DNA of 26,289 bases from assembly GCA_001275005.1 (NCBI GenBank), contig JWZX01002959.1, positions 1 through 26,289 of the forward strand, written 5' to 3'. The notes beneath the pieces are model-generated. The model did no database searches and had not been told where the DNA came from. It was given only the letters and a program-made list of their open reading frames with translations. The position numbers and the translations under genes are program-made. This document shows positions 15,551-26,289 of the stretch, piece after piece. Within the stretch, counting starts at the first letter, position 1, and each line of letters begins with the position of its first letter. The stretch comes from Chrysochromulina tobinii (taxonomy: Eukaryota > Haptophyta > Prymnesiales > Chrysochromulinaceae).

Positions 15551-16873
15551 ATGCCGGCTGATCTTAGCCCGAGCCCACTCCAACAGCCTACGATAAGGCC
15601 CGCTCCTAGATTGATGGACAGCTTGTCCGCGTCAGTCTCGAGACCAACCTCAGCTATTAGCGCAGCGTCAGCTTCATCGGGCGTGACGGCCGTGGGCGTG
15701 GGCGTCAGGGGCGCACGGCTTATTAAGCGCTCCTCCTTGAACGACTCTCCTTATGCGACCTCCGTCGCCGTCCCGGCCGCATCGAGCAGCTCTGCTCCAG
15801 CTGCTCCAGCTTCTGCTTCGAGGTCTCCTTATGCGACCGCCTTGAGCAGCACTTCGACAGCTGCTATGGCGGCGCCCACTTTGGCTGCCGCTCCAACGAG
15901 CAATGCGGCCGAGCCGCTCGTTGAGCCGGTGCGTACTGCTCCGCCCCTCAGGAAACGACCGGCACGCCCAAAGTCAGCCAAGAAAGGAGGGCGCACCAAA
16001 CCATCCAAGGACCTGTGGAAAGAGGTGACCGCCCGGCTGGCGGCACCTCACGCGGCGGGCTCAGGCGCACGCGCCGTTCGATCAGCCACGCGAGCCGCCC
16101 GCGCCGCCGTGGACGCCGCAACTCAGCCGGTGGCCGCGAAGAGGATGATGCGCGTCGTCGAAATGATCCAAGCGGCAGATGCCGCCAACGGGCGCCCATC
16201 GACAGCGCAGGGGCGCACAGCTGTGGAAGGGCAGACAGGCCGCCCAGGATCGGCAAAAGGCGTTCGTCCAGCGACGGCATACGCAGACGCGGGGCGGAGG
16301 GGCTTCGCAGCAGCCCTGCGCGCGCGCGCATCCGCCGCGCCCGATGCAGTCCTCTGGCGTCGCGCGCCCGATGGGCAGATATTCGAATCGGACGAGCTCG
16401 CAGAGGAGCTTGAGGCGACAGTCGAGCCCGGGGAGGGCGACGAGGAAGAGGAGGAGGGGCTGGTGGAGGAGAAGGCGCTGCCCAGGGACGTGCTCGGCCT
16501 CGATGTGCTCGGCCGAGCAGGCGCCTCCATCGAACCCCGCACCAAACTGGATCCGGTGACGAAACCGGAACCGGTGACGAAACCGGAACCGGTGACGAAA
16601 CCGGAGTCGGTGACGAAACCGGAGCCGGTGACGAAACCAGTCGAGGCGCCGAAGGCGTGTACGGCGGGCAGCGCCAGCGCGGCCGCGCCGGTGCTGAGCA
16701 ACGGCGCTGCTGGCCGCTCACGGAGGCCGAGCGCGGACACCGAAGGTATGGCCTCCGCGGCTGTGCCGGCGAAGGGGCTGGCGCTGTCGACGCAGGCTCC
16801 GGCGACGGCAGCGGCAGCGACTCCGACGCCATCGACGTCGCTGACAGCGGCAACCGCGGCGGTGCCAAGTTGA
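15551..16873 (+). CDS. Low-complexity basic protein with RPxSA-type motifs (unknown function)
   Basis: 440 residues from the ATG at 15551 (MPADLSPSP); an alternative start is the ATG at 15614. No known domain is recognised. The protein is rich in Ala, Ser, Pro and Arg. It has scattered motifs RPTSA, RPKSAKK, RPSTAQ, RPGSAKG and RPATAYA, an acidic patch (EGDEEEEEGLVEE) and five hexapeptide repeats close to KPEPVT. A possible ordered segment is SKDLWKEVTARLAAP to KRMMRVVEMIQAAD. RPxSA-rich proteins are common among microtubule and flagellar proteins of algae, but that link is weak inference. The long frame and its divergent pairing support a real gene. Confidence 0.65.
   Translation: MPADLSPSPLQQPTIRPAPRLMDSLSASVSRPTSAISAASASSGVTAVGVGVRGARLIKRSSLNDSPYATSVAVPAASSSSAPAAPASASRSPYATALSSTSTAAMAAPTLAAAPTSNAAEPLVEPVRTAPPLRKRPARPKSAKKGGRTKPSKDLWKEVTARLAAPHAAGSGARAVRSATRAARAAVDAATQPVAAKRMMRVVEMIQAADAANGRPSTAQGRTAVEGQTGRPGSAKGVRPATAYADAGRRGFAAALRARASAAPDAVLWRRAPDGQIFESDELAEELEATVEPGEGDEEEEEGLVEEKALPRDVLGLDVLGRAGASIEPRTKLDPVTKPEPVTKPEPVTKPESVTKPEPVTKPVEAPKACTAGSASAAAPVLSNGAAGRSRRPSADTEGMASAAVPAKGLALSTQAPATAAAATPTPSTSLTAATAAVPS
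16550..16639 (+). repeat. 18-bp tandem repeat, five copies
   Basis: Units of the form GAACCGGTGACGAAACCG repeat five times in frame and encode (D/E)PVTKP hexapeptides. The middle copies are identical, which suggests recent expansion. Confidence 0.9.
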
Positions 16874-17250: not shown

Positions 17251-17416
17251 GTGCGTGGTCTGCACACGAGAGCCGCGGCGCCCGCAATTGCGCGTGCGTG
17301 GTCTGCACACGAGAGCCGGCGCCCGCAATTGCGCGTGCGTGGTCTGCACACGAGAGCCGGCGCCCGCAATGGCGCGTGCGTGGTCTGCACACGAGAGCCG
17401 GCGCCCGCAATGGCGC
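17251..17416. repeat. 41-bp tandem repeat, four copies
   Basis: Copies start at 17251, 17294, 17335 and 17376, each beginning GTGCGTGGTCTGCACACGAG. The first has a 2-nt insertion (43 nt). Copies differ mainly at CAATTGC versus CAATGGC near the unit's end. The array ends 24 nt before the stop of the HCF173-like gene on the minus strand, so it probably lies in that gene's 3' UTR or in the terminator zone between convergent genes. There are no unique spacers. Confidence 0.92.
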
Positions 17417-17439: not shown

Positions 17440-19464
17440 TCATCGGTTGGGCTGCAACACCTCCAATGCCTTGCTGATATCTTGCTCATACATGGAGGGG
17501 GCGACAGTGTCGGACTCGGTGATGGTACATGCCACGTTGCAGGCGCGCGGGTCGAGGAGCGAACGCACAGCGACCTCAGCCACATCCGCACGCGAGACGG
17601 TGCCAGTGACGGGCCCGCTGCCCTGCGTGAACGACAGCCGGCGCGAGCTCGGCGCATCAGTGAGTTGCGTCGGGCGAACGATGAAGTAGGTGAGGCCCGA
17701 TGAGCGCAACATGCGCTCGCCCCGGAGCTTCACTTGAGCACGAGCCGAGATGGGCGGAGCGGCCTGCGCGCGCGCTGCCGCCGCCTCCGCGTCGGCCAAG
17801 GTGCCCCGCTTGCCCTTGTCCTCCTTGCTGTCCCCCGCAGCGGCCTCCGCGTCCGAGATGTAGATGATCTCGGGCTCGTCACGCTTGCGGAACGCCTTCA
17901 CATTCGCCACTGACAAGTAGAACTCTCCTGTCGTCTGGCTCGGGTTGTTGCGCTGCGGGTAAAAGGCGAGCGCGAGCCCCACCAGCTGGCGTCGGTCGAG
18001 CTCCGGCGCATCCAGCACCCGCCGGCCGTCGCGCACGGGCACAAAGGTCGAAAAGGGCAGCCGCACCGTGTCGAAGCGCTTCGTGGCCGCAGTGGCGGTG
18101 AAGTCCGCATGGTACTCAAGCCCACTGCGAGCGTACTCGGGTGTGCGTAGCACGGCGGTGTACTTCTTGCCGTCGCTGATCGCGCGGATCACCAGCCCAG
18201 AGTACTCGCCGAGGTTGAGGGGCACCTCGGCCGCCGCGGCCGCTGCGACCACCCGATCGACCTCGCCCTCGATCTCGCCCTCGATCTCGCCCTCGATCTC
18301 GCCCTCGATCTCGCCCTCGACCTCGCCCTCGATCTCGCCCTCGATCTCGCCCTCGATCTCGCCCTCGATCTCGCCCTCGATCTCGCCCTCGACCTCGCCC
18401 TCCCCGCGCCCGCCTGCTGCTGCTGCTGTGGGGGCTGGCTTCGCCACATCCCACTGACGCGTGCCGCCATACTCGTCGATGAATTCGGCGCGCGTGTACG
18501 CCTTGCCATCCGTCACGTCGACGCGCCGCTCCACCGCCTCACTCGCCGGAAGGCTCGCCGGCGCAGCCGCCTCAACGGTCCCAAACGTCACGGGCGTCGC
18601 TCCGAGCAGCAACCCAGAGAGAGAGCAACCGATGACCGCAGCGCCGAGGTACGTGTCGAAGACACGCCCGACGAAGACGCCGTTCCGGTGCGCGCCGCTC
18701 CGCTTCCAGAGCACCGTCGACGGCTTTGGCCCCACGCCCGCGCTCTGGAGACGACTCGCGACGTCGCCTGAGGACGCCTCAACACGCCAACGGTTGAAGT
18801 CTCTGTCGCGGCGCATCTTGAACAGGCTGAGCTTGGTCGACTCGGCGTCGCCGTACATGAAGGTGCGGGTGTCCTGGAAGCTGCGCAGCACCGCCTGAAG
18901 CCCGTCGAGCTCCTCGTCGTCCTCCGCGTCGGCCGCGAAAATGACCCGGTCGACGTCCTCCATCGCATCGAGCAGAGAGCGATAGTCCGTCATGTCGCCG
19001 TACGAGTACGAGACGCCAGAGCCGAGCAGGTTAAGAGTCTCGCTGCTCAGCGAGCGCACGAGCACCGACACGCGGAAGCCCTGCAGCACCAGCTTGCGCA
19101 CGATGAGGCGCCCCATGCGCCCGGTGGCGCCAATGACGAGGACAAGTGGCACAAACTCGGTGTCGGCTTCCGGCGCTTCCTCGAACCTGGTCAACTCGCT
19201 CACTGGGACCTCGCTCGGTTTGACGAGGCTCTTCCAAAGCCCACGCAAATTTTGAACCGCGCTGCTGATGCCGTTGGATGTGGATGGAGGCCGCTGATCG
19301 TTTGGCACCAAGGCGCCGCCGCTGGCGCGGAGCTCAGCAGCGCGACTTTTGGTTTGTGGAACCAGGTGCGACGTCAAAGCTGGGCAACGGCTGGTGAGCC
19401 CGAACGACGCGACGCCCGACAGGGCTAGCAGCTGAACGTACCAAAGCCTGAGCATGCTGGGCAT
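17440..19464 (-). CDS. HCF173: HCF173-like plastid protein (atypical SDR with inserted CIA30 domain)
   Basis: 674 residues from the ATG at 19464. It starts with a signal peptide (MPSMLRLWYVQLLALSGVAS), then Phe and a Ser/Arg-rich transit-like stretch, as in proteins sent to complex red plastids. A Rossmann segment follows (VIGATGRMGRLIVRKL, about 107-122; YGDMTDYRSLLDAM). CIA30-type sequence comes next (KMRRDRDFNRWRVE; YSGLVIRAISDGKKYTAVL; VRLPFSTFVPV), then the SDR end (GERMLRSSGLTYFIVRP, SRADVAEVAVRSLLD). This order matches plant HCF173, which promotes psbA mRNA stability and translation for photosystem II D1. Oddities: the CIA30 part is split by an insertion holding a hydrophobic stretch (about 272-292), a YTRAEF/YGG motif and a Gly-Glu-Ile-Glu repeat. 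The ATG at 19629 was rejected because it puts 55 atypical residues before the signal peptide. Confidence 0.8.
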   Translation of the reverse strand: MPSMLRLWYVQLLALSGVASFGLTSRCPALTSHLVPQTKSRAAELRASGGALVPNDQRPPSTSNGISSAVQNLRGLWKSLVKPSEVPVSELTRFEEAPEADTEFVPLVLVIGATGRMGRLIVRKLVLQGFRVSVLVRSLSSETLNLLGSGVSYSYGDMTDYRSLLDAMEDVDRVIFAADAEDDEELDGLQAVLRSFQDTRTFMYGDAESTKLSLFKMRRDRDFNRWRVEASSGDVASRLQSAGVGPKPSTVLWKRSGAHRNGVFVGRVFDTYLGAAVIGCSLSGLLLGATPVTFGTVEAAAPASLPASEAVERRVDVTDGKAYTRAEFIDEYGGTRQWDVAKPAPTAAAAGGRGEGEVEGEIEGEIEGEIEGEIEGEIEGEVEGEIEGEIEGEIEGEIEGEVDRVVAAAAAAEVPLNLGEYSGLVIRAISDGKKYTAVLRTPEYARSGLEYHADFTATAATKRFDTVRLPFSTFVPVRDGRRVLDAPELDRRQLVGLALAFYPQRNNPSQTTGEFYLSVANVKAFRKRDEPEIIYISDAEAAAGDSKEDKGKRGTLADAEAAAARAQAAPPISARAQVKLRGERMLRSSGLTYFIVRPTQLTDAPSSRRLSFTQGSGPVTGTVSRADVAEVAVRSLLDPRACNVACTITESDTVAPSMYEQDISKALEVLQPNR
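18257..18401 (-). repeat. 12-bp tandem repeat encoding Gly-Glu-Ile/Val-Glu
   Basis: About twelve units of GATCTCGCCCTC (plus strand), with GACCTC variants at the ends and once inside. The repeat is in frame and encodes an acidic (GEIE)n linker within the HCF173-like protein. Confidence 0.92.
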
Positions 19465-24687: not shown

Positions 24688-26224
24688 ATGTCGTCGCCGA
24701 TGTGCGGGCGGGGACCGCCACCGGCTCGAGCCGGAGCGTGCGGCGTTTGCGGCTGCGAATTCAAGAGCCGGAACGCTCTCTTCGAGCATCTGAAGACATC
24801 GTGCTTGCCCGCGGTCGCCACGCTCACCGTGCCCTCCGATCAGCTGGCCGAAAAGCCAAGACTCTCGCTGCTGGTTGGGTTCGTCGGGGACACCTGGTAC
24901 GGCACCAAGATGAATGGGCCGACTTGCGAGATCGTTCGGCCTTCGGTCGCCGCCGCGGTGCTCGCCGCTGCGCAGCGCGCGTGGGGCCCGATCGTGACTG
25001 CAGCCAATGCCGAGGCGGTTCGGACCGAACGGGGTGCCAGTGCCGCTGCCAACGTGGTGCTGCTCACGATGCTGCGCGGCGACGCCGGGGCCAGCAGCGA
25101 GACCGACGCCGACAAGCTGCGCCGTGAGCTGCCACCGTCGATCACGCTCCTCGCCGGGCCGCGCCTCGCGCCACCAGCCAAGCAAGGAGAGGAGCTGTTC
25201 AAGCTCGTGCGCTTGCAGGTGTACACGTGTGCGGTGCCGTACTCGGCGCTGCTGCCAGGGCCGGCATCGCTCGAGCAGCAGCAGGAGGAGCAGCAGTACG
25301 AGCAGCCGCAGCAGCCCCAGGCGCTCCCTAATTTGGGATCGCTCCCTAATTTGGGATCGCTCGGCTCGTGCGTGTGGCTCGCCGGGCTGCCGCTCGGCAG
25401 CGCCGCGTCCGACGTGCGCCAGCTGCTGCAAGCCGTTGGCGTGGAGCGGTACGTGAAGGACGTGGTGATCAAGGGCGACTCGAGGCTCGAAGGTGGCGAC
25501 GCCGTCTTGGGCGCAACGGCTGAGGGCGCCGTCTTGGGCGCGGTGGCTGAGGGCGTGGACGGTGGCAATGGCCCACACGCGGGCGCCGTCTTGGGCGCAG
25601 ACCACACGACGGCGACGCTCATGCTCATCGCGCCGCGCGCCGCGCCCAAGACGGCGCCGGGCGCGCCGCCCGGAGCGCCCGCGAGCGAAGTGCCCGAGAC
25701 GGCGCCGTGCGCGGCGGTGCTTGGGGCGCTCGATGGATACACGTGGCGCGGAGCCACGTTGATTGCCCTCGATGGCGCCGAGTCCGAGGCCAAGCAAGCG
25801 GTCCATGCGCGCATCTCGAGTGTGCTCGCGCGCCTCGCAGCGGCCAAAAGCTTCCACAACTTTATCCAGACCAAAGGGGGGGTGAGCGCGAGCAGCGCGG
25901 CGCGTCGGCTGCAGGTGAGTCTCGTCAATTGCCACTGATGGCCACTGATTGCCATTGATTGCCTCTGATTGCCTCTGATTGCCTCTCTCGGCTGCGGCGC
26001 GTCGGCTGCAGGTGAGCACCGCCGACATCACGGAGGACCTGCGCGCCCAGCACGGCGCGCGTCCCGAGGGCGCGTGGCGGACGGGAGATTGGGTCCAGAT
26101 ACACCTTGGCGCGCGTGAGTTTGGGGCGCAACAGCTGCGGCGGCTTACAGGGGTGCTCGTGGCGCTCGTGCGCGGTGTCGAGGGGGACGAGTACCTACGC
26201 CGATGCTTCGACCCGAGGCAGCAG
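24688..26224 (+). CDS. C2HC zinc finger fused to Pus1/TruA-like pseudouridine synthase (3' partial, two introns)
   Basis: Exon 1 is 24688-25914 (409 residues) and exon 2 is 26012-26224 (71 residues); a second intron runs to the window end, so the gene continues. Residues 18-39 form a C-x2-C-x12-H-x4-C finger (CGVCGCEF...HLKTSC). The synthase core follows: GFVGDTWYGTKMNG, then AVRTERGASAAANVVLL, where the family has RTD(K/A)GVxA with catalytic Asp; here it is Glu114. LPPSITLLAGPRL and KLVRLQVYTCAVPYSALL match the substrate-domain motif. KSFHNFIQTKG...ARRLQ matches the family's HNF...RR element. Exon 2 reads GDWVQIHLGAREFGAQQLRRLTGVLVALVRG, matching the GxxFxxHQIRKMxG helix but with the His lost. 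An acidic and GAVLGA-rich insertion lies at about 190-360. Glu for Asp and loss of other conserved residues suggest weakened or lost catalysis (inference); an RNA-binding pseudoenzyme is the alternative. Confidence 0.78.
25322..25357 (+). repeat. 18-bp direct repeat, two identical copies
   Basis: CGCTCCCTAATTTGGGAT occurs twice in tandem, in frame, encoding LPNLGS twice. The unit contains an inverted repeat (TCCC...GGGA). Confidence 0.85.
25499..25657. repeat. Cluster of four 16-nt palindromic elements
   Basis: GCGCCGTCTTGGGCGC lies at 25526-25541 and 25583-25598, with one change at 25499-25514. Its exact reverse complement lies at 25642-25657. The forward copies encode AVLGA/GAVLGA and the reverse copy APKTAP. 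It differs from the copies near 1137 only in one loop base (T for G). Confidence 0.72.
25915..26011 (+). other. Introner-like intron 1 (97 nt, phase 0) with exon duplication
   Basis: It begins GTGAGTCTCGTCAATTGCC. It then carries about five 10-nt units of the TGATTGCCTC type, each with a branch-site-like CTGAT or TTGAT, and ends in CTGCAG. Its last 18 nt (25994-26011) copy the last 18 nt of the upstream exon (25897-25914). The identity continues through GTGAG on both sides, a 23-nt direct repeat in all. Removing it rejoins the Pus1-like frame (ARRLQ|VSTAD), and reading through gives a stop at once. Confidence 0.85.
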
Positions 26225-26289
26225 GTGAGTCTCGTCAATTGCCTCTGATGGCCACTGATTGCCTCTGATGCTTCGACCCGAGGCAGCAG
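26225..26289 (+). other. Introner-like intron 2 (65 nt visible, phase 0) with exon duplication
   Basis: It starts with the same GTGAGTCTCGTCAATTGCC as intron 1 and matches its first 40 or so bases with one change. Its last 23 nt (26267-26289) repeat the last 23 nt of the upstream exon (26202-26224), ending CAGCAG at the window edge. The 3' splice site is therefore predicted at the final base. Confidence 0.75.

Follow-up and report, generated by a model that had tools for sequence, protein, structure and literature searches.

The window, that is, the whole stretch of DNA analysed (26,289 bp), is an entire contig (C1800) of an assembly of 53.15 Mb in 2,253 contigs. It contains a host gene with a frame formed by positions 24688-25914 joined to 26012-26224, in which two inserts, both predicted to be introns, lie between codons (phase 0). 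A Pfam search with the host gene returned a weak zinc finger (C2H2) match only, and a homologue 47% identical to it gave a sub-threshold Pfam match to pseudouridine synthase. A window protein was 54% identical to P0008 from Haptolina brevifila (taxid 156173), the sole organism-named entry among its 26 best relatives, and another of the genome's genes was 50% identical to P0086 from Emiliania huxleyi, so that the alga is likely a haptophyte. The exons also hold an 18-bp tandem repeat (CGCTCCCTAATTTGGGAT) at 25322-25362; LPNLGS units occur twice in the window gene and once each in its relatives P0061-P0063, and further tandem repeats of the window lie at 16544-16638 (18 bp), 17251-17416 (41 bp) and 18257-18402 (12 bp). 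The features of the gene and its inserts are as follows.

24688..25914, + strand: host gene exon 1, 409 codons, with the weak C2H2 match at its start; has homologues
25897..25914, + strand: exon end at site 1, copy one, 18 nt, ending in CAG
25915..26011, + strand: insert 1, predicted intron 1, 97 nt, phase 0; homologue P0065 reads across the site
25915..25933, + strand: element head of insert 1, GTGAGTCTCGTCAATTGCC, resembling a 5' splice site
25928..25983, + strand: 10-bp satellite of insert 1, units TCTGATTGCC, containing CTGAT
25985..25993, + strand: non-satellite stretch of insert 1, common to the inserts of contigs C1725 and C1453; likely a relic of an earlier host exon
25994..26011, + strand: exon end at site 1, copy two, with the predicted 3' splice site CAG at 26009-26011
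26012..26224, + strand: host gene exon 2, 71 codons, from the reading frame and homologue P0065
26202..26224, + strand: exon end at site 2, copy one, 23 nt, ending in CAG
26225..26289, + strand: insert 2, predicted intron 2, running for 65 nt or more and truncated where the contig stops
26225..26243, + strand: element head of insert 2, from the genome-wide head search
26238..26269, + strand: 10-bp satellite of insert 2, from its tandem-repeat structure
26267..26289, + strand: exon end at site 2, copy two, its CAG being the final bases of the contig

As the original prediction held, the two inserts are related: over 40 positions (25915-25954 versus 26225-26264) they mismatch solely at positions 20 and 40, and the head found no match in 100 shuffled windows. 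Their shared phase 0 was also confirmed, both sites falling between codons of the host frame, as were the exact exon-end copies, of 18 nt at site 1 (25897-25914 recurring at 25994-26011; 23 nt when the adjoining GTGAG is included) and of 23 nt at site 2 (26202-26224 recurring at 26267-26289). The insert brings a GTGAGT and repeated CTGAT motifs, which we take to resemble a branch point, without an acceptor of its own, and the proposal that the CAG of the copied exon end likely acts as the 3' splice site is supported as a prediction. Since the window is the whole of contig C1800, insert 2 stops on the last base of the contig and its downstream exon is unseen; a longer tandem array may lie beyond this end. 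Three features set out below are not visible from the window alone: the role of the satellite, a mirror-image family, and old exon ends handed over from one gene to another.

Genome-wide searches showed that the inserts belong to a multi-copy, introner-like family, as had been suggested. The 19-nt head (up to 2 mismatches) was found at 92 places versus 1 for the reversed pattern, an extended head (up to 3 mismatches) at 108 places versus 0, and two more head variants gave 86 (reversed 0) and 98 (reversed 3) matches, partly overlapping. The target can therefore be discounted as the source of the 5' splice site of intron 1, contrary to the possibility raised in the original prediction, because the head is the element's own and recurs at 92 genomic places. 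The 10-bp satellite had 696 overlapping matches (reversed 0) and is thus more widespread than the 19-nt head. Among viral contigs, a single exact match to the head pattern had surroundings that looked unrelated; it was taken as chance.

We sampled 60 stretches around head or extended-head places (100 of the 108 extended places being listed) together with the window, leaving out 14 listed places on 11 contigs (C272, C319, C694, C752, C971, C1067, C1256, C1463, C1658, C1665 and C1753). With up to 3 mismatches allowed, these held 114 head instances, which merged to 85 sites, with tandem arrays at 21 of them; removal of one locus (L043) that repeats another (L038) left 84 sites, a count that retains some chance or decayed head matches. 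Consistently with introners, many genes of this genome carry similar inserts, here predicted introns, whose positions are unrelated to one another. They lacked the similarity near both splice boundaries expected of introners, the 5' end alone being fixed; at 57/84 sites, hand-over groups apart, the 3' end varies with the host exon. One of the several arrangements described for introners, in which one splice site is carried and the other comes from duplication of the target, was also present, as predicted splice sites.

Several loci deserve description in their own right. L033 (contig C182), L079 (C1677) and L048 (C380) are tandem arrays with four to five units, each made of an insert and an exon copy; the units of C182 measure 75, 85, 95 and 115 nt, so that the differences in length are whole numbers of 10-bp repeats. 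The insert at 1156 of C506 (L036) is built partly from a different short repeat, with units like TCTCGGACGAA. In L031 (C88), L066 (C343) and L078 (C1542) the heads stand at the apparent 5' ends of existing introns (exon|GTGAG), with exon-end duplications of 44, 23 and 20 nt, respectively; in C88, the apparent intron would be an older one of a gene that is presumably helicase-like by its motif, and CTGATCAAT occurs on both sides of the jump.

The most regular property of the family is the copied exon end. A copy of the directly upstream exon end (score at least 10) closes the insert at 57/84 sites, compared with 7/840 mispaired combinations (P = 8e-62), in agreement with an earlier duplication test of all 114 instances, array units included (79/114 versus 24/570). 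The 27/84 sites where no own copy was scored are hand-overs, decayed copies and chance head matches, plus window insert 2, which counts as a miss in these figures owing to the contig edge. In the 57 sites the copy is 10-45 nt long (median 23) and is perfect in 26, of which 18 are at least 20 nt, which confirms that the duplications far exceed ordinary target-site duplications in length. At one site (L052, C852), CTG stands at the exon end ahead of the insert and CAG at the end of its copy, so one of the two copies has changed.

A duplicated target and a high copy number are what would be expected of a non-autonomous DNA transposon (a MITE-like introner making a target-site duplication), the origin proposed for most introners, as is one splice site carried with one co-opted, the arrangement reported for Chrysochromulina sp. 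(PMC9860276, legend to Fig. 2C). We consider this origin improbable here: duplications of 10-45 nt (median 23) do not fit a fixed length of 3-9 bp, only the 5' end of the insert is fixed, and tandem arrays occur at 21/85 sites. Moreover, inverted repeats between the head and the end of the body reached at most 6 nt, at 3/57 sites, compared with 5 nt in shuffled sequence, a difference so small that clear terminal inverted repeats of the transposon type are lacking. A classical DNA transposon is thus disfavoured, because the duplications are variable and clear inverted repeats are absent.

The insert is preceded by AG at 69/84 sites and by CAG at 59/84. The distance from the A of the last CTGAY to the end of the insert has a median of 31 nt and falls within 20-47 nt in 48 of the 53 inserts with the motif, which is absent from 4 of the 57 own-copy inserts. 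An earlier AG lies inside 38/57 copies, so that being first past the predicted branch point does not by itself define the terminal AG. The length of the duplication is probably set by what splicing tolerates, that is, an acceptor AG approximately 20-47 nt past the last CTGAT. Some of the AG bias can be put down to selection, which probably also determines how short or long the copies may be. At the 3' junction, 29 of 46 scored units (several of them from the same arrays) were periodic up to the copy. In these 29, the periodic sequence ran on into the copy for a mean of 1.97 nt versus 0.30 in control lags, and short homology was lacking at 10/29 junctions, which amounts to modest short homology overall; the commonest single 3' break was TGATT|GC (11/46 scored units).

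Reading frames, conserved proteins and homologues lacking the intron support the prediction that the inserts are excised exactly as introns. The frame test covered 42 AG-to-AG sites, namely those with an own copy by that script plus the site of C1159. An upstream frame was callable at 28 of them and placed 25 inserts in phase 0, 1 in phase 1 and 2 in phase 2, compared with 137/271 in phase 0 for CAG triplets of the same coding stretches (P = 2e-5). Both flanks were callable at 18 sites, and excision kept the frame at 16/18 in this stricter open-frame test; an earlier one based on base composition had found 24/34 sites consistent. Since open frames are common on both strands of this GC-rich genome (of 69 AG sites, 55, 34 and 27 have upstream frames of at least 50 codons in phases 0/1/2, and 46, 35 and 23 have open 150-nt frames on the antisense strand), the frame evidence is weakened and counts as support rather than proof. 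Excision rejoins without a gap a P5C synthase (C1818, own-copy score 19), a beta-mannosidase (C2162, score 10) and a DYRK-like kinase (C972, HCDLK|PENILL), the last lying below threshold because its own-copy score is 9. Six joined proteins all matched Pfam, the junction itself being spanned only in an AAA ATPase (AAA_lid_3) and in the kinase.

Homologues provide a view of the sites without the insert. P0065 (47% identical) reads across window site 1 and continues for 25 residues past window site 2, where the window has no exon to compare. At another locus with a perfect 22-nt copy (C2055:12145), the homologue P0068, 95% identical, reads straight across; its last residues look like a translation that runs on, unspliced, into a similar repeat, so that the site is likely to be truly empty. 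P0068 may be a spliced gene model, as may the database homologues in general. Within the genome, a strawberry-notch-like gene (Pfam; C1159) is uninterrupted where its paralogue on C1725, named by its similarity to the C1159 gene, bears an insert. These data bear on the idea that old introns were filled by the spreading satellite and that their 3' ends became exon-like through gene conversion. The satellite is indeed commoner than the head (696 overlapping matches), as this idea would have it; nevertheless, we regard it as very improbable, because a 95%-identical relative and a paralogue read across insert sites, perfect copies of at least 20 nt are present at 18 sites, and the head is fixed.

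Other relatives of the window gene behave differently from P0065: P0061-P0063, with 93-95% protein identity, enter the insert at window site 1 and then stop, which suggests that insert 1 is older than that divergence. The claim that intron 1 is a very recent insertion is consequently not supported, for two reasons, since these 93-95%-identical relatives already enter the insert at the same place and its 3' end (CTCTCGGCTGCGGCGCGTCGGCTGCAG) is largely common to the inserts of C1725 and C1453. The same relatives, which come from other sources, speak against an assembly artefact, a false duplication beside a repeat, as do the 57 sites with different copies. Although the end of the contig coincides with that of the second copy, as such an error might produce, this explanation is hardly credible.

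The shared 3' end of insert 1 is one instance of a wider pattern, in which some inserts carry exon ends foreign to the gene in which they lie. The clearest case joins the inserts of C1159 and C1619, identical at 90/95 positions: of the last 43 nt of the C1159 insert, 40 positions match the exon of C1619 and 13 its own exon, and the C1159 exon end shares only AG with that of C1619. The last 18 nt of the C1444 insert come from the exon end of C736; 10 of them match the exon end of C1444 as well. One 3' stretch is common to the inserts of C500, C556, C1626, C1918 and C2167, and another to those of C1453, C1725 and the window (insert 1). Window insert 1 therefore holds a relic of the latter lineage (CTCTCGGCTG). 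Moreover, the exon end at window site 1 is identical to that of C1725 over 16 nt, the 18-nt match of insert 1 may be partly inherited, and in view of the shared 3' end its perfect copy is no proof of recency.

Exon ends at insert sites resemble one another beyond what their coding context would give: 14/65 shared at least 10 nt with another site, compared with 10/258 in-frame controls. When sites were grouped by the 3' end of the insert, such sharing was seen in 5/15 pairs versus 9/3,435 other pairs, the four groups having been drawn by hand after the data were seen. In three of the four hand-over groups an exon-end pair shares 10-16 nt, and in the fourth 2 nt; most of the remaining grouped pairs share 3-5 nt. 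An attempt to link inserts by k-mers (112 linked pairs) was abandoned as noisy, because heads within tandem arrays and GC-rich words joined unrelated sites.

Taken together, these observations describe a genome-wide family with a GTGAGT head, 10-bp repeats and, at 57/84 sites, a copy of the host's exon end, predicted to be spliced exactly; template switching at AG|G is the likely means of its spread (probability roughly 0.55). In splicing, the head would act as the donor, CTGAT as the branch point and the AG of the copied exon end as the acceptor. At the birth of an intron, DNA synthesis reaching the ...AG of an exon would switch to an existing intron at AG|GTGAG, copy its head and satellite, and then return by short homology to the host exon 10-45 nt upstream, so that the exon end is copied again. 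If the return took place only at the terminal AG of the donor intron, the whole intron would be passed on with its old relic, as may have happened from C1619 to C1159, and repeated rounds or unequal exchange would generate the tandem arrays. Such switching would account for the fixed head, the AG junction, the variable copies, the short homology, the donor-like exon ends, the arrays and the hand-over. The origin by copy-paste-like repair raised in the original prediction is plausible. The AG at the junction could also result from selection for splicing. An exact splice-to-splice copy without duplication, as in transposition by reverse splicing, fits the C1159/C1619 pair and not the 57 own-copy sites.

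An RNA route is possible and would share many of these features, because the genome contains reverse transcriptases (26 RVT_1 matches, e.g. C2236:14348-14833, some in frames of more than 1,500 codons). Target-primed reverse transcription of the excised, linear intron RNA, with an exact 5' end and a 3' end trimmed within the repeats, would prime at a nick, a second nick giving the 10-45-nt duplication. Beyond the available enzymes, this main rival is consistent with the variable duplication lengths, with the exact 5' end and the repeat tail adjoining the duplication, and with the GC overlap at some 3' junctions (TGATT|GC, 11/46 units); target duplications of variable length and tail repeats, as in LINE/SINE-type elements, are indeed found here. 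However, it leaves unexplained the AG at 69/84 junctions, unless selection was strong, and the 10-16 nt of exon-end sharing in three of the four hand-over groups, and we judge it rather unlikely. We thus favour template switching over both retrotransposition and a transposase.

A second family, B, of the form GCATGCAAGTGCTCACCACGGCGC ... CCCCACAG, has at least 2,312 core matches genome-wide (up to 3 mismatches; reversed 0), none of its copies lying in the window. The fetched loci (L043 left out) contained 76 copies, of which 43 were isolated and 31 had a candidate acceptor. A flanking 15-44-nt copy of the downstream exon start accompanied 16 of these 31, versus 3/310 mispaired combinations (P = 2e-16); 14 of the 16 duplicated copies begin with GT and 8 are preceded by AG. 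Examples are L033:2036, L069:3358, L079:1387 (-), L084:1632 (-) and L090:4413 (-). Judged by these predicted splice sites, family B is the reverse arrangement, with the acceptor carried and the donor taken from duplicated exon. Family A, to which the window inserts belong, would bring the donor and branch points, duplication of the upstream exon end yielding the acceptor; family B would bring the branch point, pyrimidine tract and acceptor, duplication of the downstream exon start yielding the donor. We tentatively suggest that introns may be built from two complementary half-introns, A and B, by the same copy-and-return template switching, each part mobile sequence and part host exon, with relics passed on; we hold this to be somewhat doubtful, the more so because only 8/16 family B copies are preceded by AG.

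The comparisons that follow draw on parts of the papers cited. The closest known counterparts are introners of Chrysochromulina sp. (family 5, TARA_PON_109_MAG_00232; Gozashti et al. 2022, PMC9860276), likely from the same algal group, which similarly bring their own 5' splice site, borrow the 3' one and, in the part of the paper used here, are without terminal inverted repeats; their duplications are of 4 bp, in contrast to 10-45 nt here. As described there, that pipeline kept only introns similar close to both of their boundaries and filtered out families dominated by short repetitive motifs, so that a satellite family such as the present one would probably have been lost. Micromonas and Aureococcus introners (PMC9860276) are likewise multi-copy, and target duplication aids splicing in some families; those of DNA-transposon type are described with 3-9 bp repeats and/or inverted repeats, and other families without both. 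Intron gain at staggered breaks in Daphnia (PMC4202315) left 4-12 bp exon-end repeats at new introns (33 cases); the sections used mention no head and satellite shared across the genome as here. In models of tandem genomic duplication and intron transposition (PMC3443670) the duplicated exon likewise gives a splice site and whole introns are copied, as with C1159/C1619, whereas here a shared mobile sequence lies between the copies and most sites add a copy of host exon. Fungal sister stwintrons (PMC12403724) are also sequence-similar introns at new positions; in the text consulted they show neither target-site duplication nor co-opted splice sites. The comparison literature, in part, also includes PMC11782384 and PMC7789003. 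Co-option of a splice site from a duplicated target was hence already known (PMC9860276, PMC4202315, to the extent used here). None of the titles and abstract openings searched described an introner family with long exon-end duplications, nor such a mirror pair. As far as these literature searches show, the new elements are the long, variable exon-end duplications together with a branch-point-like satellite, the hand-over of relics and the mirror family.

These findings address the long-open question of how new introns arise. Families A and B are prone to be overlooked wherever a search requires both intron ends to be similar or discards repetitive introns. The exon relics act as labels of descent, so that moves from donor to recipient can be read within one genome, which makes the mechanism testable. 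If this reading is true, half of the splicing signals would suffice for a mobile sequence to become an intron, because its own insertion duplicates enough of the host exon to provide the missing signals, suitably spaced from the branch point.
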